Below, one piece after another: positions 14,176-60,056 of a stretch of DNA of 64,000 bases. The DNA is taken from assembly GCA_004297765.1 (NCBI GenBank), contig SCTZ01000073.1, positions 1 through 64,000 on the forward strand. Direction: 5' to 3'. The notes under the pieces were generated by a model that saw only the letters and a list, made by a program, of their open reading frames with translations, ran no database searches and was not told where the DNA came from. The position numbers were made by a program, and so were the translations under genes. How positions within the stretch are numbered: position 1 is the stretch's first letter; every line of letters begins with the position of its first letter. The stretch comes from Chloroflexota bacterium (GTDB lineage Bacteria > Chloroflexota > Dehalococcoidia > FW602-bin16).

Positions 14176-14230
14176 GCAATAAGTTGTACAATTAGTGACC
14201 TTTGTGCGAACTGCTGTAATGTGGATCGGT

Positions 14231-14256
14231 CGGATCGGACCGATCGGTCCGATCCG
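14231..14256. repeat. 26-bp perfect palindrome (GATCGG family)
   Basis: Perfect palindrome made of repeated CGGATCGGACC units, in the gap downstream of the 479-residue membrane protein gene. A related palindrome is at 59977-60011 between coxC and coxA. Confidence 0.7.
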
Positions 14257-14326
14257 CATGTTTTCGCCTGTCAGGTCACGGGTGACACAGCATTAGAGGT
14301 CTTTGCGATGGGGTGGGCGGGGCTCC

Positions 14327-15766
14327 CTAGTGAGCAACCTCCGCGGTCGGCTCCGAGGTGTGCGATGGTAGGAAGAGCGTGCCGACGACGACACCGCATA
14401 GCGCCAAGCTCAGGGCAAAAAGAACGGTAGAGCTCGTCACCCAGAAGGAGGCGAGCAGAGGCCAGACGAACATGTTGGCAGCGGTCAGAACCAGGCAAGC
14501 CAGGACCAGCGCGGTCAGAGCGGCGCGCGGCAGCGGTCGCGTGCAGAGCGCCAGAGCGTACGCGGCCAACATGACCACGGCGTATTGCGGGCTGAAGACG
14601 CGGTTCAGCACGATAAAGGCCAGCACCGCCAGGGCGGCCAGCTTGAGACCGCGCGGCCTGGGCCCGGGCGCGACCAAAGCCGCCAGAGCGATCACGCCGA
14701 TGGTCGCGAACTGAATGAGCGACGTGGTTGAATTGGTGAAGATATCGCTGCTGAATCCGTCCCAGGGTGCGGCATTGGGGGCCAGGCGGTGCAGCGGCTC
14801 CAGCCAGTAGGTCGGCAGATAGAAGATGCTCTCTGCCATCGCTCCCCGGTCGGCATGAAAATGATAGGTGAAGAGAAACCGCTCCGCATCGGCAAGCCAG
14901 AACGGCAAGCCGATGGCGATCATCCCAGCCGCGAGGGCAACGGAGAGCTTGACCAGAGCACCCCATTCCTGCCGCCTGAGCAGGTAAAGCCACATGATCG
15001 GGACCGCCAGGGCCGGAAACCATTTGGCATAGAATCCGGCGGCCAGCGCTAGCCCCAGTAGCCACTCGCGCCGGGCGATGAACAGATAGGCACTCAGGGC
15101 GAAGAACGCCGCGGGCAGGGCGTCGAACTTGGAGAACCAAAGGATCAGGCTGAACGGTGAAACGGCAACGAATAGGGCCAGTAGCCATGCCGATTGCCGG
15201 GATTGGCAGCGCAGCCCAACACCCCAGATGCACGCGATGACCACCAGATCGCAGACCAGGTTCAGCAGCGGCAGAGCTATCCGGAAAGAGTCCAGCGCCC
15301 CGCCGGCCAGAGAGTACGCGCCCCAGAAATAGAGCAGGGCCAGCTGTGGGTACTCCATTTTGGGATAGGTGCCCTGGGCCAGTTGCTGTGCGTAGCTGAA
15401 GAACAGCTTGACATCGGGATCGACGGTCATGTCCGCGAAGCCAATGCGGAAATATAGATAGGACAGGCGCGCCACGATTGCGACGACAAGCAGTCCGACT
15501 AGAGCCAATGGCAGGCTCGACAGCCGACGCGAAAACCAGGACACAAGTGCCAGCACCGCCGCGCCGAGTACCAGAGGCGGGAAGAACGGCATCAACCTAT
15601 CAGCGGAGTATATCTCGGCGTTATTGGGCGGGAAATGCGGGATGAGCAGCAGGTAGGACTCGACCACGATAAAGACCGCTAGGCCGAGATAGAACAAGGC
15701 CATCCATGCCAGCTTACCCTGTCTGCGATCGCCTGTCCCGAGAGGGGCCGCGCGTTCATCGCTCAC
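14327..15766 (-). CDS. GT-C-like integral membrane glycosyltransferase
   Basis: 479 residues with about 11-12 hydrophobic helices across the whole length. The GTG start overlaps the stop of the 1329-residue gene by four bases (GTGA), so the two are co-translated. A loop after the second or third helix contains TVDPDVKLFFSYAQQLAQGTYPKMEYPQ, and FSKFDALPAAFFALS and AGFYAKWFPAL follow; this resembles polyprenol-phosphate-mannose-dependent transferases (GT87/DUF2029 type). Expected role: transfer of a sugar from a lipid carrier on the outer face of the membrane. The specific sugar and acceptor are unknown. Confidence 0.75.
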   Translation of the reverse strand: MSDERAAPLGTGDRRQGKLAWMALFYLGLAVFIVVESYLLLIPHFPPNNAEIYSADRLMPFFPPLVLGAAVLALVSWFSRRLSSLPLALVGLLVVAIVARLSYLYFRIGFADMTVDPDVKLFFSYAQQLAQGTYPKMEYPQLALLYFWGAYSLAGGALDSFRIALPLLNLVCDLVVIACIWGVGLRCQSRQSAWLLALFVAVSPFSLILWFSKFDALPAAFFALSAYLFIARREWLLGLALAAGFYAKWFPALAVPIMWLYLLRRQEWGALVKLSVALAAGMIAIGLPFWLADAERFLFTYHFHADRGAMAESIFYLPTYWLEPLHRLAPNAAPWDGFSSDIFTNSTTSLIQFATIGVIALAALVAPGPRPRGLKLAALAVLAFIVLNRVFSPQYAVVMLAAYALALCTRPLPRAALTALVLACLVLTAANMFVWPLLASFWVTSSTVLFALSLALCGVVVGTLFLPSHTSEPTAEVAH

Positions 15767-18700
15767 CTGGTGCCTCCTGTTACGTCAACTTCGAGGAGCC
15801 GGACGAAATCCGTTCCAATTGGCAAAGTCAGCCGAGCTCCACTGGCCGGGTCGTAGAGCCCCACGATCACCGCGTATTTCTCGGGGGGCAGCGTGGCCGG
15901 CAGCTCCACGCGGTGCGTGTCAGTGACCACTTCGCCGATCTGCCAGCCCGTGGTAGGCAACTGTCCGTCTCGCGGTTGAGAATCATGCTGGGCGACCAGA
16001 CGCCCCGATGGGTCCAGGAGTTGCACGAACACTTTGTAAGAAGTATTCATCTCCTGGATGGCTTGCCAGTACAGAGCTACCGAGAGCGGAACGCCCGCGG
16101 CGACCTTTGCTCTGCCGCTCGGACTGGCTACGTCGGTGGTTCCCACGCCTGAAGACGGCAGGTCGTAACCGATCAGTCGAACGCGATTTCCAAGGGTCTC
16201 AGCCCGGGGAACCTGTGGAGACGCCTGGAAGACCCGCGGCCGATCCTTGATCCGCACGATTCCCAGAATCTCCTCTAGCAGCACTTGGTGACTATCATGG
16301 GCAACCACCTGCGCCCGGAGAGTAGCGGAGCCGACAGGTGTGCGTGCAGAGAGGTTAAGCAGATATTGACCCCGCACGATCTCGCCGGCCCGCCAGCGCG
16401 AGGTTGGGTACTGAGAGACGAGCGGAACGGTCTCATCGAACGAAGGGCGGTGATCGGCGTCCTCCAGAATCAGGCGGAGATCGAGATCCCTGTTCTGGCT
16501 CTTGCGGGCCAGCCAGCGCAGATCTACGTGCAGACGATCTCCCGGTTGAGCTTCGATAGATCCCAGGCGTTTGCCAAGCAGAACCAGGTCTTGCTCGGGG
16601 CTCTGGCTTCCTGCAATCGTACTGGATGTCGTCTGTCCTGTCAGATTGGCCGGCTCTACCTGAATCTGACCGAGCAGTACGGTCGGCCCCATTGGGATGT
16701 CATCGGGTCCGAGCACGCTGAGGGGATGATCCGAGCCAACCACCTCCAACTGCAATCGGTAGACTCCCGGCGGTGTATCGGATGGGACGCTCATGTTCAG
16801 CTTATCTGCTACCGGCGTCTGAGCTGGCCAGAGGGAGATAGGGTAGCTGCGGTCCGAGGGCAGGATATCCTTCACCGCCCACAGCAATCCCTGATCGTCC
16901 GCCAGCCGAAACGTCATGGTATAGTCGTCGGGCAAGCCACGGGACAACTGCCATAGCGCGTCTATGTGGATCTCCTCGCCGGCCCGAACCGAGATCTGAT
17001 TGGCGACCGTACTCGCCGGCTCCCAGGGGGCTCGCGCGGCGGCGACATCGGCCTTCTTCAAGAACAGCGTTCCCTCCAGATTGGCGAGCTGACCATCAGT
17101 GACCAGCGTTGCCGTCCGGAGTGATCGATCCTCGCCGATCACCAGCGGTCCTATCTGTGCCGCCTGGACGGTGGGTAACAGATCCACCACGCTCGCACTC
17201 TGAATAGGCGCGGGACTGCCGCCGGAGATCAAGCCCGCCTCCAGACGATAGACGCCAGATGGAAGCGGACTGTCCGACCGCAAGTCGAGCCGTACGTCGA
17301 TCGGACTACCCTCAGCTGGCTGTCCCTCCGACAAGGAGGACTCCGCATAGGCCCAGGTTTGCTGGTCACGGCCGGTAAGCCGCGTGAAGGCGCGACTAGC
17401 GACGGCCGCAACGTCTGTTTGCCAGAACAGGCGAACGGAAAGCGGCCCACCCACGACCGGCTCGGAATGTGCCGTGAGTTGTGTTCCGTTGCTCTCCACG
17501 GCATAACCGAGCAAAGTGGCGGAGGGGAATTTTACCAGTGTGGGATCAGGCACGTCCGAGGGAACTGCGTAGTAGCGGTCGTGCGTGATCTTCAACCCTG
17601 CCGTGGCCACGAGCAGCAACGCCGCACCTGTCAGCCAGATGGCCGAGGAAGATAGCCCCGGTCTCGGTGTCACGACCTCAGACCGCCGATGCACATTGTG
17701 GAAGAGGGATAGACCTCCTGGGAGCGCGGGCGTCTCGCCCGCGCGAGCGCTCGCGCCCGCCTTAGGCGGGCGCTCCCAGCGCAGACGCGTGTGCGCCACT
17801 CCCCGACCATGTGCATCACGCGTTTTCAGTCCCCGCCAACTGAGCCCGCCGACCAGACCGAGACCGAACAGAAGCGAAACGATATCCGCGGCAAGTCGAA
17901 GCGGCGTCTCGCCAAAAACGACCGCTAGCTCGTGTTGGCCTGCCGGCACGGTGACCTGCGCCAGTCCTTCGCGTTTCTCGGCGACGAGAGACAACGGGTG
18001 TCCATCGAGGCGCGCTTGCCAGCCGGGGAAGTACAGCAGATTCAGAGTGAGCGTTGTTTGCGCAGGCGCGCTGATCCTATAGATCCTGTCATAGGCTCCG
18101 CGCGACTCCACGGCTACCCTGGTCGTCGGGTTTGATGTAGCCCGCACGGCTGGCACTTCTCGCCCGAGCAATCGGGCTAGCGCCAGAGGCGAGGAGACGG
18201 GCGGGTTTGTCACGGCGCTCGGCAGATACTCGCCCGCGATGGATGTTCCGATCACTCCGTAGACCAGCTCGTAGCGTAGGATGTCGTCCGGTCCCAGCTC
18301 ATTCGTGCGGCTGCTGACCTGAGTCGGTCGAAGCAGCAACATACTGGCAGCGAGTATGACAAAGATAGCCACCGAGGCGATCGCAGAGCGCCAGCGCCTG
18401 GGCGCGGATTCCACGGCCAGTGCCCCGAGCACCGCCACGGGCAAAGCCGCGAACCCCAAGAAGCGCCAGGGAAACTGGACCAACGCTAGAACAGCCACGC
18501 GCTCCCAGAGCCAGGTGGAAGCCGGCAGGACGAGAAAGAGGGCCATTCCTGCGATGCTAAGTTGAAAAACGGACTCCACGCGCAGCCGCCGCGCTAGACT
18601 GCGCCAGCGGAGCACCAGTGCGAGTACGCCGAACACGAGCAACAGGCTCTGCCACAGGGCCATCTGGTGGTTCAGCGCGTCGTCCGTGTTGAAGATGCTT

Positions 18701-19752
18701 CCATATGGCTGAAGCCGGCTGAGCGAGATAAGGTCGGTCAGCCCGACGAAGTGCGCGTGGTAGTCCAGCTTCTCGACGAGCCGCTGCATAGAGATCAGAG
18801 ACGTCTCGGCCACTGCTGGCAGCCAGAAGAAGGCAGTCAGCCCCGCCGCGGCAGCCGCGCAGCCAATGACGGCGGCCACAGAGCGAGCCATAGCACATCC
18901 CTTCAGACGCACTATCCCCTCTCCCTTTCGCAAAAGGGAGAGGGCTAGGGTGAGGGTTCCCGTTCCACCGTCTCGAAGATTTGCTCCAACAAAGATTCCT
19001 TGTCGGGATCTGATCGACCCCTCTTCATTGGCTCCGGTCGGCGGCCCATCGGCGTCGGGGGCTGAACCCTCACCCTCGCCCTCTCCCTTTTGCGAACGGG
19101 AGAGGGATAAACCTAGTGGGGCGTTGCGCTGTCCAGTGACAACCCAGGCCAGAACGTAGCACACCAAGACCGGGGCGAAGAGGAGCGCCGAGAGGTTGTG
19201 GCTGAGCACCAGCCCGCCAAGCGAAAGCACTAGCGAGAGCGCATAGCCCGGTCGCCGTGTCTGCAGAACCCGCGTGACAGACCAGAGGATCATCGGATAC
19301 CAGGCGAGAGCCAAACTTTCGGCCAGGTCGCCGCGATAATAGAGCGTCACCAGGTGATACGGTGCGTAGGTAAAGGCGGCCGCGCAGACCGCCGCCGCTG
19401 GCCGCGACAAGAACAAGCATGCGTAGAGGTAGGCGCCCGCGCCAGAGAGCACCAGGGAGAGCAGTACAACCAGCTTGGTCGCCAGGATCGGGTCCGCACG
19501 CAGCCAAAGAAACGGAAGCGCAGCGTAGTAAGCTAGTGGTGCGTAGTAGTTGAAGACGGGGTAGCCGTAGCCAAAGTAGAAGTCGGGCGCCCAACGTGGA
19601 TACAGGATGCCCTGTCGCCACAGGCTCTCGTACTCCACCAGTCGAAACAGATGGAAGGGACCGTCGCCCGAAGCAAAGAAGAACGGTTGCAGAAGGACGG
19701 CCGCGGCCGGGCCCACCAAAGCCAGCAAGAACGCCAGGATGACCAGCCGCAC
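15763..19752 (-). CDS. Giant membrane protein, 6-pyruvoyl-tetrahydropterin synthase-related
   Basis: 1329 residues; GTG start. Residues about 1-560 carry roughly 10-12 membrane helices with an early FFASGDGPFHLFRLVEYESLWRQG, GYGYPVFNYYAPLAYY and YYRGDLAESLALAWYP, typical of the PTPS-related domain (PF10131), a GT-C-like fold despite its name. Another helix lies near 735. The C-terminal half consists of repeated extracellular beta-sandwich units, each with pattern VRLFWQ/ALYWQ ... G ... P..G.Y.L. Two stretches look foreign: about 214-285 is translated from a family C palindrome (18914-19106) and about 660-685 from a family B hairpin (17720-17780), both in frame. Co-translated with the downstream GT-C protein. 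Probably surface polysaccharide or glycoprotein work. Confidence 0.8.
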   Translation of the reverse strand: MRLVILAFLLALVGPAAAVLLQPFFFASGDGPFHLFRLVEYESLWRQGILYPRWAPDFYFGYGYPVFNYYAPLAYYAALPFLWLRADPILATKLVVLLSLVLSGAGAYLYACLFLSRPAAAVCAAAFTYAPYHLVTLYYRGDLAESLALAWYPMILWSVTRVLQTRRPGYALSLVLSLGGLVLSHNLSALLFAPVLVCYVLAWVVTGQRNAPLGLSLSRSQKGEGEGEGSAPDADGPPTGANEEGSIRSRQGIFVGANLRDGGTGTLTLALSLLRKGEGIVRLKGCAMARSVAAVIGCAAAAAGLTAFFWLPAVAETSLISMQRLVEKLDYHAHFVGLTDLISLSRLQPYGSIFNTDDALNHQMALWQSLLLVFGVLALVLRWRSLARRLRVESVFQLSIAGMALFLVLPASTWLWERVAVLALVQFPWRFLGFAALPVAVLGALAVESAPRRWRSAIASVAIFVILAASMLLLRPTQVSSRTNELGPDDILRYELVYGVIGTSIAGEYLPSAVTNPPVSSPLALARLLGREVPAVRATSNPTTRVAVESRGAYDRIYRISAPAQTTLTLNLLYFPGWQARLDGHPLSLVAEKREGLAQVTVPAGQHELAVVFGETPLRLAADIVSLLFGLGLVGGLSWRGLKTRDAHGRGVAHTRLRWERPPKAGASARAGETPALPGGLSLFHNVHRRSEVVTPRPGLSSSAIWLTGAALLLVATAGLKITHDRYYAVPSDVPDPTLVKFPSATLLGYAVESNGTQLTAHSEPVVGGPLSVRLFWQTDVAAVASRAFTRLTGRDQQTWAYAESSLSEGQPAEGSPIDVRLDLRSDSPLPSGVYRLEAGLISGGSPAPIQSASVVDLLPTVQAAQIGPLVIGEDRSLRTATLVTDGQLANLEGTLFLKKADVAAARAPWEPASTVANQISVRAGEEIHIDALWQLSRGLPDDYTMTFRLADDQGLLWAVKDILPSDRSYPISLWPAQTPVADKLNMSVPSDTPPGVYRLQLEVVGSDHPLSVLGPDDIPMGPTVLLGQIQVEPANLTGQTTSSTIAGSQSPEQDLVLLGKRLGSIEAQPGDRLHVDLRWLARKSQNRDLDLRLILEDADHRPSFDETVPLVSQYPTSRWRAGEIVRGQYLLNLSARTPVGSATLRAQVVAHDSHQVLLEEILGIVRIKDRPRVFQASPQVPRAETLGNRVRLIGYDLPSSGVGTTDVASPSGRAKVAAGVPLSVALYWQAIQEMNTSYKVFVQLLDPSGRLVAQHDSQPRDGQLPTTGWQIGEVVTDTHRVELPATLPPEKYAVIVGLYDPASGARLTLPIGTDFVRLLEVDVTGGTR
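17720..17780. repeat. Family B hairpin inside the giant membrane protein gene
   Basis: CTGGGAGCGCGGGCGTCTCG ... ending GGCGGGCGCTCCCAG: the same ends as the copies at 7095 and 43789. It is read through in frame, giving an Ala/Gly/Arg-rich segment between a helix and the next domain. Confidence 0.7.
18914..19106. repeat. Family C palindrome inside the giant membrane protein gene
   Basis: The left end contains CCCCTCTCCCTTTCGCAAAA, GGGAGAGGG and AGGGTGAGGG; the right end is the inverted copy (CCCTCACCC, CCCTCTCCC, GGGAGAGGG). The whole about 190-base element is translated without a stop in the gene's frame. Its sister copy is at 19990-20125. Confidence 0.8.
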
Positions 19753-19947: not shown

Positions 19948-20235
19948 CTAAGTGCGTCGTTCCTCAAGTACAGCGAGCGGGCGGCGCTATTCCCTCTCCC
20001 TTTCGCAAAAGGGAGAGGGTTAGGGTGAGGGTTCAGCCCCTGGCGCCGATGGATCGCCGTCCCGGACCAATGAGGACCCGGGGTACCCTCACCCTCGCCC
20101 TCTCCCTTTGCGAAGGGCGAGGGGATGGCACGTCAGCTATCCCGATGTCATCGAGATCGAAGAGTGTCCATCCTTGATCTTTCCGCTGAAGAACGTCCCA
20201 CAAAGGACATCGCACTTGAGGAACGACGCACTTAG
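19948..20235. mobile_element. MITE-like element with 22-bp perfect ends, nested repeat
   Basis: 288 bases bounded by a perfect 22-base inverted repeat (19948-19969 and 20214-20235; core AAGTGCGTCGTTCCTC). A complete family C palindrome (19990-20125) lies inside, as if inserted later. No transposase frame and no obvious target duplication. It fills most of the divergent gap between the giant membrane protein gene and the hydrolase gene, and the right end is only 24 bases from the latter's start. Confidence 0.75.
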
Positions 20236-22959: not shown

Positions 22960-23048
22960 CTACGCGCGAGCTTCGCCCCGGAAAGATGCCTTGGTCCAGC
23001 CCCCGACAAGACATGAGTCCTTTCTAACTATTGTCTTCAACAGGTGCA

Positions 23049-23086
23049 ACAGCCCCGAGCTCCGCTTGGAAGCTCGGGGCTGTTTC
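23049..23086. terminator. Strong hairpin terminator, copy 1
   Basis: ACAGCCCCGAGCT / AGCTCGGGGCTGT stem with a small bulge and loop, followed by TTTCT on the plus strand. It serves the LmbE-type gene on one side and the exported protein gene on the other. Repeated at 24045 as part of the tandem duplication. Confidence 0.75.
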
Positions 23087-23157
23087 TGCCTGAACCTGTC
23101 GTGGGCTGCTCTCCAGACGACTTGCTACACTATGGAGTTACCTTGGTGACAACCGAG

Positions 23158-23643
23158 CTAATCTTCTACTACCGTCGCTACCCCGGCTGTGCCCTTGAAC
23201 TTGTTGAGGTTCGTGTAGACGGTCACGTCGTTGAGGATCCTGGTTCCCCCTGAGTCGTCGTCCGTTTGCGCCGAGATGAATACGTCGCAGACCGTCGAAG
23301 CAGGGATGTCGCCCAGCTTGATCTCGATGTCGTCGCGGGTAGCAGTATCGAGCTTCTGGGTCACGACCAGCTTGGTGCCGCAGGTGGCGGATACGCTGCT
23401 GGTAAGGTAGTCCTGCTTACCCCGCATAACGTCCAATAGCCTCACATCTTCGACATTCTGGTTGAAATGCAGCTGGATCTTGTAGGTAACGGGAGTGCCC
23501 TCCTCCACCGGCAAAGGTTCCCAGACAATCTTCTGCAGTATCGTCAGCGGGGGCTGGAACGCCAGGGCTCCCCCTGCCGTCATGACGATGAGGGACAGCG
23601 CGGCCAGGACGGCGTTAAGAATCAGTAGCCTTCGTCGTTTCAC
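23158..23643 (-). CDS. Small exported protein, tandem copy 1
   Basis: 161 residues from the GTG at 23643, which follows AAGGAG by nine bases. A basic start (VKRRR), a hydrophobic core (LLILNAVLAALSLIVMTAGGALA) and an AFQ site make a clear signal peptide or anchor. The mature part is beta-rich with two Cys (ATCGTKL and ASTVCDVF) that may pair; its pattern YKIQLHFNQNVEDVRLLDVM resembles DUF11/CARDB-like adhesion folds, but I cannot name a family. Nearly identical to the next gene. Upstream is a long conserved leader. The farther-upstream ATG is not used in my view, because a one-base indel between the copies changes that frame. Confidence 0.7.
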   Translation of the reverse strand: MKRRRLLILNAVLAALSLIVMTAGGALAFQPPLTILQKIVWEPLPVEEGTPVTYKIQLHFNQNVEDVRLLDVMRGKQDYLTSSVSATCGTKLVVTQKLDTATRDDIEIKLGDIPASTVCDVFISAQTDDDSGGTRILNDVTVYTNLNKFKGTAGVATVVED

Positions 23644-23890
23644 TGTCTGCGTCTCCTTTTCTTGTTCTCGGGCATGTATGCCCATGCATGTCTTCAGCCT
23701 AACGATGGGGTCTGTCTGGAGAGTGCCTCCACGGCGGTTCTTTGCCCTGGACGTCGCATACGTACCTGCGTCACCGTCCGGGGAGCGCACTAGTCAACGG
23801 CATTGCCGTTGGCTAAAGTGCTTCTTCAGTGTAATGCCATATAACGAGCTTGTCAGTAAGCGAAGGGCCAGCAGTATACATAGTTAAATA
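23644..23890 (-). promoter_or_regulatory. Long conserved leader of exported-protein gene, copy 1
   Basis: About 250 bases upstream of the GTG are kept between both copies as well as the coding part. On the minus strand a TATACT box (about 23872) could start the transcript. A perfect palindrome CAACGGCAATGCCGTTG (23796-23812) and a GGACG..CGTCC pairing around 23751-23781 suggest a folded 5' leader. GGGCATGTATGCCC lies close to the gene start. No known riboswitch class was recognised. Confidence 0.4.
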
Positions 23891-24044
23891 TCGAGGCTGA
23901 TGGGACCGAGGTGGCATCCATACGGGGCATACCCTACACAGAGCGGGTATTCGATTCGGCACAGAAAACTCGTTGGCAGGGTTGCCACGCAGTCGACGAG
24001 GACGTTGCCGGCCAGGGCGATACCACTGTGTGCCATCATACGTA

Positions 24045-24083
24045 ACAGCCCCGAGCTCCGCTTGGAAGCTCGGGGCTGTTTCT
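24045..24083. terminator. Strong hairpin terminator, copy 2
   Basis: Same stem-loop as at 23049 with TTTCT following. Here it separates the two exported-protein copies. Confidence 0.7.
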
Positions 24084-24153
24084 ACCTGAACCTGTCGTGG
24101 GTTGCTCTCCAGACGACCTGCTACGCTATGAAGCTAGCTTGATGGCATCCCAG

Positions 24154-24642
24154 CTATAGCTCGTCTACTACCGCAGCGACCCCAGCTGTTCCCTTGAAAT
24201 TGTTGAGGTTCGTATAGACGGTCACGTCGTTGAGGATCCTGGTTCCTGCTGAGTCGTCGTCCGTTAGCGCCGAGATGAATACGTCGCAGACTGTCGAAGC
24301 AGGGATGTCGCCCAGCTTGATCTCGATGTCGTCGCGGGTAGCAGTATCGAGCTTCTGGGTCACGACCAGCTTGGTGCCGCAGGTGGCGGCTACGCTGCCG
24401 GAAATGAAGTCCTGCTTACCCCGCATAACGTCCAGTAGCCTCACATCTTCGACATTCTGGTTGAAATGCAGCTGGATTTTGTAGGTGACGGGAAGACCCT
24501 CAATCACCGGCAAAGGGGCCCAGACAACCTTCTGCAGTATCGTCAGCGGGGGCTGGAACGCCAGGGCTCCCCCTGCCGTCATGACGATGAGGGCCAGCGC
24601 GGCAAGGACGGCGTTAAGAATCAGTAACCTTCGTCGTTTCAC
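24154..24642 (-). CDS. Small exported protein, tandem copy 2
   Basis: 162 residues, GTG start at 24642 with AAGGAG upstream. Same layout as copy 1: signal peptide, then a beta-rich domain with two conserved cysteines. Differences cluster just after the signal (APLPVIEGLP versus EPLPVEEGTP) and at the DFISGSVAAT/DYLTSSVSAT site; the rest is almost unchanged, so both copies appear to be under selection. Function unknown; a surface or cell-wall role is inferred from export alone. Confidence 0.7.
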   Translation of the reverse strand: MKRRRLLILNAVLAALALIVMTAGGALAFQPPLTILQKVVWAPLPVIEGLPVTYKIQLHFNQNVEDVRLLDVMRGKQDFISGSVAATCGTKLVVTQKLDTATRDDIEIKLGDIPASTVCDVFISALTDDDSAGTRILNDVTVYTNLNNFKGTAGVAAVVDEL

Positions 24643-24890
24643 TGTCTGCGTCTCCTTCTCTTTGTTCTCGGGCATGTATGCCCATGCATGTCTTCAGCCT
24701 AACGATGGGGTCTGTCTGGAGAGTGCCTCCACGGCGGTTCTTTGCCCTGGACGTCGCATACGTACCTGCGTCACCGTCCGGAGAGCGCACTCGTCAACGG
24801 CATTGCCGTTGGCTCAAGTGCTTCTTCAGTGTAATGCCCAATAGCGACCTTGTCAGCAAGCGAAGGGCCAGCAGTATACATAGTTAAATA
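24643..24890 (-). promoter_or_regulatory. Long conserved leader of exported-protein gene, copy 2
   Basis: Matches the leader at 23644-23890, including the CAACGGCAATGCCGTTG palindrome (about 24796) and the TATACT box. The one-base indel near 24656-24662 relative to copy 1 breaks any upstream reading frame and so argues that the region is untranslated. Confidence 0.4.
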
Positions 24891-25050
24891 CCGAGGCTGA
24901 TGGGACCGAGATGGCGTCCATACATGGCATACCTCACTCGGCAGGTGTATTAAACTCGGGACAAAAATTCGACGCCGACGATCTCCGGGCTTGTGAAGTG
25001 CACTTGCAAGGGCTCGGTCTGCAATTGACTGGGCTATCATACTAGCTAAC

Positions 25051-32276: not shown

Positions 32277-32682
32277 CGGTGAGCCAGAGCACGCAGTCCT
32301 TTGAGCGCCGTGCGTTCTGGACCAGCTCTTTAAAGCCGCCCTCCTCTTCGCCCGGTATCAGGATCAGAGTGTAGCGCCTCATAACGGTACTTTGTCATTC
32401 TGAGGCGCGCACGCCGAAGAATCCGTACTCCCTTGCCGCACAAGGGTCGAAAAGGCGCGGATTCTTCGCGCTGCGGCGCTCAGAATGACAAGAGTCCACT
32501 GAAATAAGGTCAAGCTCACGGGCAGGGTCGATGGCAATCCCCACTTTGGCGCCCAGGGGGCGCGGAAATAGGGAGGAGCGCCACGAATAATGGCATCTTG
32601 CCGGGGACTTCCCCCACCGGTCATTCGCGAGGGACCTTCTTTCAGACGACTCATGACAAACTACGGATAGTAGCCTCCCAAA
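32277..32682. other. Intergenic region with a TCATTCTGAG palindrome
   Basis: Between convergent genes. It holds the inverted repeat described separately at 32392-32491; the rest shows no reading frame, RNA or terminator that I can support. Confidence 0.5.
32392..32491. repeat. TCATTCTGAG-family palindrome, short form
   Basis: TTGTCATTCTGAG (32392-32404) and CTCAGAATGACAA (32479-32491) are perfect inverted ends; inside are GAAGAATCCG and CGGATTCTTC. 100 bases. Related to 26626, 30385, 37055 and 46410 elements. Confidence 0.8.
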
Positions 32683-36590: not shown

Positions 36591-37454
36591 TGCCGCCTCC
36601 ATGCTTCCTCTACCTCGATATTCTCTCCTTAGCACAAGATAAGGGGACCTGTTCGGGAATCCCATCGGCCTGCGCCGCGTCGGAGCGGGGAATTCTCGGT
36701 GGCCTGTCTCCGTAGGCAACTCGCCCATGGCGAGAGGCGACCGAACCATCGACCTGACGGCGTATTGAGTACTGCAGTACTGGCCAGCATAGTCGTCTGG
36801 TCGGGCGAAGGCTGATTCCTCAGCACCTGTCTTACGCCTGCCATGGACGAATACTATATATGACAGCCGCATGGCTCGTCTGGCAGGAGGAGGAGATAGG
36901 GAGAGAATGATCGCCGATCGCCCGTTTGCGCATTGTCGCGCACCCAGGGCCGTTTCTCCCTCTTCCTGATTGTACTGCAGCTCGAATCCTTTCGTCGCCT
37001 GGTTCCACGGCAACGACGCCCAGTCCCGGTACATTGTTCGCGGCACGCGCCCAACTAGTGTTCGACCACACTGGTTTGTCATTCTGAGGCGCGCACGCCG
37101 AAGAATCCGCGCCCTGGGGATACGGATTCTTCGCGCTGCGGCGCTCAGAATGACAGATAGCGTCTTCTCTGTGGTCGAACACTAGCGTCCCTAGCCTGAG
37201 TTCATACTGATTCGCTAACTGGTCGATCCGACGAGCGCCCCTAGCATACGTGTAAGACGACTGCTTGATCTACTGTCGCCCGCAGCGTTATTGAGGAGCC
37301 AAGATCGGCTCCGCAAGATCATCCCGGGGCACGCCGAGAGAATGTCACGAGAAAGGAGGGCCGAGACAAGAAGCCAGACGGGCGAGACCTATCAACACGG
37401 TGTGTCGCCTGAGCCCTGTACCATACCATCATTCGTTAGGAGGTAAGATCGGGA
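36591..37454. other. Long gene-free region before the chemoreceptor
   Basis: About 860 bases. It holds short hairpins around 36690-36745 (e.g. GGCAACTCGCCCATGGCGAG), the 37055-37185 mobile palindrome, and then an untranslated approach to the MCP gene ending in SD AGGAGGT (37438-37444). Minus-strand frames here have no family features. Confidence 0.5.
37055..37185. mobile_element. MITE-like TCATTCTGAG element with CTAG ends
   Basis: 131 bases. Perfect 16-base ends CTAGTGTTCGACCACA / TGTGGTCGAACACTAG enclose the TCATTCTGAG..CTCAGAATGA palindrome. Almost identical internal sequence is at 46410-46565. Both copies begin and end with CTAG. Confidence 0.8.
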
Positions 37455-43788: not shown

Positions 43789-43851
43789 CCTGGGAGCGCG
43801 GGCGTCCCGCCCGCACGAGTTCCACGTGGGCGGGACGCCCGCGCTCCCAGG
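43789..43851. repeat. Family B hairpin, long form
   Basis: CCTGGGAGCGCGGGCGTCCC ... inverted end GGGACGCCCGCGCTCCCAGG, in the upstream region of the propeller lipoprotein gene. Confidence 0.8.
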
Positions 43852-46409: not shown

Positions 46410-46565
46410 CTAGCGTTCGACCACACTGGTTTTGTCATGCTGAGGCGCGCACCCTTCGGCTCGGCTCAGGGCAGGCGCCGAAGAATCCGCGCCCTGGGGA
46501 TACGGATTCTTCGCGCTGCGGCGCTCAGAATGACAGATAGCGTCTTCTCTGTGGTCGGCCACTAG
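46410..46565. mobile_element. MITE-like TCATTCTGAG element with CTAG ends, at purS stop
   Basis: 156 bases, ends CTAGCGTTCGACCACA / TGTGGTCGGCCACTAG; a second copy of the 37055 element with a short insertion (CTTCGGCTCGGCTCAGGGCAG). The right-hand CTAG provides the TAG stop of purS on the minus strand (46562-46564). The rest of the 46134-46561 gap holds nothing I can call. Confidence 0.8.
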
Positions 46566-59915: not shown

Positions 59916-59976
59916 GGCTGCTCCTCCGGATCAATCCTCTCGTGTGTTCCGTGTACGCTCCACGTAGCCGATCAGT

Positions 59977-60011
59977 CCGATCAGTCGGATCGGACCGATC
60001 CGACTGATCGG
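59977..60011. repeat. GATCGG-family palindrome between coxC and coxA
   Basis: Inverted repeat built of CCGATCAGTCGGATC, five-base centre GGACC, GATCCGACTGATCGG. It lies in the 141-base gap between coxA stop and coxC start. A cousin is at 14231. Confidence 0.7.
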
Positions 60012-60056
60012 TCCCACGCGTCGTCTTTCGCGGGACAAATCACACTTATCGTAACA

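Follow-up and report, generated by a model that had tools for sequence, protein, structure and literature searches.

Two unrelated dispersed palindromes, belonging to families that we call B and C, lie in frame inside one open gene for a predicted GT-C-type membrane glycosyltransferase. The two very probably inserted independently and survived through a kept reading frame and tolerant inter-helix loops, and such survivors are concentrated in the loops of GT-C proteins. The window, i.e., the whole stretch of 64,000 nucleotides that was analysed, comes from an assembly of 5.6 Mb in 256 contigs with an estimated contamination of 8.95%, the nearest named relatives found being Chloroflexi/Anaerolineae MAGs. 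We sampled 1.66 Mb of the 5.6 Mb genome (116 pieces, 1201 genes, 79% coding), with genes called by a home-made codon-score script in place of a standard caller. The features of the window are as follows:

15763..19752, minus strand, host gene of both inserts, PTPS_related (PF10131) polytopic membrane protein (ORF, Pfam and AlphaFold)
14327..15766, minus strand, adjoining 479-aa ORF, weak GT87-like membrane glycosyltransferase, no insert (Pfam PF09594)
18904..19107, unstranded, family C element, in-frame insert of 204 nt = 68 codons, residues 216-283 (copies elsewhere, absent from relatives, low pLDDT)
17688..17823, unstranded, family B element, in-frame insert, residues 644-689 (copies elsewhere, absent from relatives, low pLDDT)
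17718..17779, unstranded, inner B hairpin, CTGGGAGCG..CGCTCCCAG, 62 nt (nhmmer model)
19990..20130, unstranded, short-form family C copy, intergenic, 141 nt (repeat search of the window)
43790..43850, unstranded, family B hairpin that precedes another ORF or sits at its mechanical 5' end, probably not within the real coding sequence (repeat search)

The host gene and its two palindromic segments

The host ORF (15763-19752) starts with GTG and encodes 1329 aa with no internal stop. Its product matched PF10131 (PTPS_related) at residues 67-208 with an E value of 4e-11, above the cut-off, and the fold neighbours of its AlphaFold model were AftA, OST/PglB, Pmt4 and AftD, with E values from 6e-4 upwards and modest TM-scores of 0.3-0.4. 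With both a profile match and a GT-C fold found, the two signs by which membership of the superfamily was judged, the protein is a predicted GT-C-type membrane glycosyltransferase. The PF09594 match of the adjoining 479-aa ORF reached 21.6 bits, which is under the cut-off of 25.

When the 3990-nt host gene was compared by blastn with 1.66 Mb of the same genome, the C and B segments were the only repeated stretches, with up to 72 and up to 85 matches elsewhere, respectively, and the C insert is intact in the gene. The sequence-only reading of this DNA had proposed that two different dispersed palindromes are held in frame within this membrane protein, and the open ORF together with the genome-wide repetition of both segments confirmed it. 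The family C repeat, which it had placed at 18914-19106, is slightly longer by blastn (18904-19107). For family B, which it had placed at 17720-17780, the hairpin is real but makes up only the inner 62 nt of a repeated unit that spans 17688-17823. The statement that both families also occur outside genes in the window held as well, with C at 19990-20130 and B at 43790-43850.

Family C elements are imperfect inverted repeats of ~195 nt bearing a hairpin of CCCTCTCCCTT..AAGGGAGAGGG type at each end, and a shorter form of ~140 nt exists as well. In the B element of the host gene, outer inverted repeats GATGCACAT..ATGTGCATC, which are seen complete in other copies, frame the inner hairpin; the repeated run is 136 nt, no multiple of three, and its true ends are uncertain. 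The inner B hairpin was also found elsewhere within different outer repeats, GACCTGGTCATAATTGTGAGA...TCTCACAATTATGACCAGGTC, which suggests that the elements are modular. The two outer inverted-repeat sets occur at L051, L052, L056, L075 and L174 versus L047, L048, L053 and L067, and in one of these sets another inner hairpin, CGAGCCCCAGCTCGGCG, is found as well, in the manner of nested modular palindromes.

The sampled DNA holds at least 54 copies of family C and at least 60 of family B, of which 52 are intergenic in either case. The arm pattern of C gave 78 matches in this genome; of 293 further genomes from the class, 14 had it, each no more than 13 times. The two B arm patterns gave 42 and 38 matches here and one each in a single other genome. 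As a control, the C and B hairpin patterns were read backwards in the same genome and gave 0 matches, compared with 78 for C and 42 + 38 for B, and the abundance of both families is therefore far beyond chance.

Three full-length relatives, namely L107 (G017), L108 (G020) and L127 (JACPRP010000069), whose best segments are 36%, 32% and 39% identical to the host protein, align along the host gene and skip both segments; at 32-39% identity, the insert junctions are placed to within a few residues. The C-type hairpin occurs ten times in the G020 genome, yet not once in its relative of the host gene, and 20 further, more distant homologues have a short loop where the C element would lie. The AlphaFold model, which covers residues 1-760 and was built with 10 relatives, has pLDDT values below 50 at residues 211-279 (C site) and 651-703 (B site), in stretches that sit between model helices 186-210 and 267-305 and between helices 617-654 and 702-727, respectively. 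Codon scores were -0.03 and -0.04 inside the inserts and 0.07 to 0.15 in the flanking sequence. Since the relatives lack either segment and AlphaFold confidence is very low between the helices, both segments are, as judged from alignment and model, in-frame insertions into inter-helix loops. This bears out what had been proposed from the letters alone, and the gaps that it had predicted for relatives without the repeats were found in all three, the insert residues being unconserved. The inserts would be translated into predicted peptides such as DGGTGTLTLALSLLR and AGETPALPGGLSLFHNVHR, and according to the model these residues are probably extra and unstructured.

The palindromes might have been taken for assembly artefacts that arose where contigs were misjoined at repeats, as the 256 contigs, the 8.95% contamination estimate and the presence of these repeats at the ends of many contigs could suggest. 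However, the frame runs on across each insert, and the sequence on either side is homologous to the same relatives. False joins would rarely bring back gene order and frame at two sites of one gene and then in some eleven others as well; we regard an artefact as barely credible.

The proposal that the inserts take up an extracytoplasmic position was not supported. The native loop ends are rich in Arg/Lys (TGQRN...RLKGCAMARS and WRGLKT...HRRSE), and under the positive-inside rule these positive charges indicate that the insert-bearing loops are probably cytoplasmic.

Palindromes in GT-C genes across the genome

With 79% of the DNA coding, 346 of the 391 dispersed-repeat segments are intergenic, 15 lie at gene edges and 30 are internal, some of the latter being ordinary protein repeats. 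Flanks in different frames were seen for one of the 299 repeat segments of the first sample. About 7% of the copies of the families are intragenic. Palindromes were found in frame in about 12 genes, 10 of them GT-C or GT-C-like. With few exceptions, the repeated DNA of these 12 or so genes is confined to the insert stretches. Besides the host gene, they are:

C123:2528-5260, YfhO, family A in frame
C251:20422-23649, YfhO, family A in frame
C141:7148-10225, YfhO, family F in frame
C5:19259-20854, PMT_2, family G in frame
C224:35024-37999, PMT_2, family E in frame
C199:1451-3766, AglB, family F in frame
C123:7128-9248, GT-C-like by topology and motifs, no Pfam match, family B twice and family E in frame
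C123:564-2555, GT-C-like by topology and motifs, no Pfam match, family F in frame
C5:14149-16092, GT-C-like by topology and motifs, no Pfam match, family A in frame
C245:52091-53440, GT4, family B in frame
C135:20643-21920, HemN-like radical SAM protein, family B insert between its two domains

The gene at C123:7128-9248 (L061), which encodes a GT-C-like membrane protein of 707 aa, has at least three in-frame insertions from two families and four repeat stretches. X123 was rejected as a family of its own, since its palindrome, GCCGCGGTTTC, is that of family F. Among the internal repeats, those in C89, C133 and C224 (54583-59997, 61120-62853) were left out for their resemblance to NHL-/SBBP-type protein repeats; repeat matches close to the starts of CbiG (C232:16790) and a Proton_antipo_M protein (C234:11520) were left out for a probable misassignment of the start site.

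Other repeats were observed in the window. Family A-like palindromes (CATTCTGAG..CTCAGAATGACA) lie at 32391-32490, 37075-37185 and 46431-46565; two YfhO genes in other parts of the genome carry family A in frame. A tandem duplication of ~1 kb, with copies 90-94% identical, lies at 23048-24961, and short tandem arrays of 9-nt units of GATCGGTCG / GATCGGACC type occur at the distant positions 14224-14263 and 59970-60018.

The results showed that palindromes are carried by 6 of 45 Pfam-defined GT-C genes versus 5 of 1156 others (Fisher p=8e-7) and, when AglB and two GT-C-like genes are added to the class, by 9 of 48 versus 2 of 1153 (p=6e-12), the gene at C5:14149, which was found later, being counted as repeat-bearing in neither test. 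Fisher's test assumes that genes are independent and do not differ in length; when scaled to length, the contrast persists, with 5.9 repeat-bearing genes in 100 kb of coding sequence for GT-C versus 0.4 for others. The GT-C class was defined after the first cases had been seen (5 of 7 genes in the first sample), and some stretches of the second sample were chosen for holding GT-C genes. Among 18 stretches chosen blind to repeats and to GT-C genes, the single palindrome-bearing gene was that of AglB, which is of GT-C type, and the non-GT-C sample had more than its share of repeat neighbourhoods, a bias that runs counter to the GT-C enrichment.

Inserts of five genes (the host gene in the window, C123:2528, C251, C141:7148 and C5:19259) fall in the same loop, as placed by one alignment of four genes and another of the YfhO set, and they come from four families (C, A, F and G). 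The shared site is between the helix that follows a conserved H(N)/GH motif and the helix after it (FWLPA, AAVQL(V/I/L)P or an equivalent position). None of the inserts reaches into a predicted membrane helix. Our limited literature search, which covered few subscription papers, found no description of a concentration of palindromes in a GT-C loop; nothing on in-frame insertion was found in the literature on dispersed palindromes of Chloroflexi, and no mention of the insert peptides (DSRFRGND, LTPTLSP and others) was found either.

Mobility and survival of the inserts

Family G is a GTAG-tagged palindrome (CGTAGTGGCGGAC...) whose inverted pairs bracket two Y1/HUH transposase ORFs, so that this family has both the stem-loop tag and the inverted pair flanking a Y1 gene that are looked for in GTAG-REP/RAYT systems:

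C135:37827-38492 (L186), RAYT-like unit, inverted family G pair spanning 666 bp, Y1_Tnp ORF at C135:37955
C216:21959-22583 (L193), RAYT-like unit, inverted family G pair spanning 625 bp, Y1_Tnp ORF at C216:22087

Copies of family G are also present in the window at about 1440, 14020 and 25050. For families B and C, no inward arm pairs around a transposase were found in the sampled 1.66 Mb, and thus no RAYT arrangement; the sampled DNA likewise yielded no parent insertion sequence or mobilising enzyme, and inspection by eye gave no clear target-site duplication at either junction, the junctions being resolved to a few residues. Both families have the terminal inverted repeats that are characteristic of MITEs and are presumably mobile.

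In the explanation that we favour, short mobile palindromes of two unrelated families, MITE- or REP-like, would have inserted independently into the GT-C glycosyltransferase gene. The palindromes would spread widely over the genome with many target sites, those that land in genes would mostly be purged, and survival would occur where the frame stays open and an inter-helix loop is dispensable and tolerates extra residues. Only one of the three sense frames is open in the C copy of the host gene and two of three in the B copy, which suggests that the surviving inserts are a filtered subset. The inserts themselves may be neutral.

If the repeat-bearing GT-C genes were instead decaying or dispensable, the in-frame inserts would reflect relaxed selection and not loop tolerance. 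With about 45 GT-C genes here redundancy is plausible, and one gene (C123:7128-9248) has accumulated four repeat stretches. However, the palindrome-bearing ORFs are all intact (426-1329 aa) with positive codon scores, the inserts avoid helices, and of the frameshifted or stopped GT-C copies that decay would produce almost none was seen (1 of 299 segments in the first sample), which makes decay unlikely.

The inserts could also be functional, with the loops or the encoding mRNA hairpins recruited, for example, to serve as spacers or to make translation pause between helices. The occurrence of four palindrome families at the same loop in five GT-C genes does resemble convergence, and all inserts are inter-helix, where a pause could aid membrane insertion. 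On the other side, 39 of the 45 Pfam-defined GT-C genes have no insert, nor do the relatives of the host gene, the insert peptides vary by family and reading frame, and simple tolerance with selection predicts the same pattern. We thus consider recruitment very improbable, and the use of the inserts as loop spacers, which had been suggested earlier, finds no support where toleration suffices. Even less credence is given to a specific form of it, in which the GT-C loop would be a recurrent palindrome acceptor because inter-helix mRNA hairpins hold up the ribosome to the benefit of membrane insertion, insertions there being retained and not just tolerated.

In general, palindromes of at least six families have entered genes of this genome, and the survivors mark one structural position, a single inter-helix loop of GT-C proteins. 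They amount to a natural map of the sites at which a large family of membrane enzymes tolerates insertions of 13-70 residues, and this map makes the choice between toleration and recruitment directly testable.

Comparison with known palindromic elements

The phenomenon of in-frame palindromes was first described in Rickettsia, and Rickettsia and intragenic REPs provide its best-known cases. Rickettsia palindromic elements (RPEs) were reportedly described by Ogata and colleagues in 2000 and 2002. Two papers present them as short dispersed palindromes that are translated in frame in unrelated genes and also occur between genes (PMC10969869, PMC2229807), and nearly half of the R. conorii copies are given as lying within ORFs in one of them (PMC10969869). 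The palindromes described here are likewise found in frame inside genes and between genes, and by the tests used for that kind of element they are dispersed palindromes with many intergenic copies, a host ORF that is kept open and relatives that lack the insert. They differ in that the host is a member of the Chloroflexota, few of the copies (about 7%) are intragenic, and those few are concentrated in one protein superfamily; the comparison is one of behaviour and claims no membership in the ten described RPE families.

GTAG/CGTC REPs associated with RAYT are found within coding sequence as well, where a single gene may hold two of them and where they presumably lie in linkers or loops; an intragenic REP was found once at about the same recB site in two Xanthomonas species, and that survey of intragenic REPs stresses DNA repair genes (PMC3733652). 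Here, too, a double insertion in one gene was found, as well as a family (G) with a GTAG tag and flanked Y1 transposase genes, whereas GT-C membrane proteins dominate and no linked transposase was found for B and C. MITEs such as ERIC, Correia and YAPL have terminal inverted repeats, measure 100-200 bp and occasionally form in-frame fusions (PMC2229807); families B and C resemble them in their terminal inverted repeats and in-frame fusion and differ in that we found neither a parent insertion sequence nor a target duplication for them. The best reading is that the inserts behave as RPEs or intragenic REPs do and are a further example of a known phenomenon.
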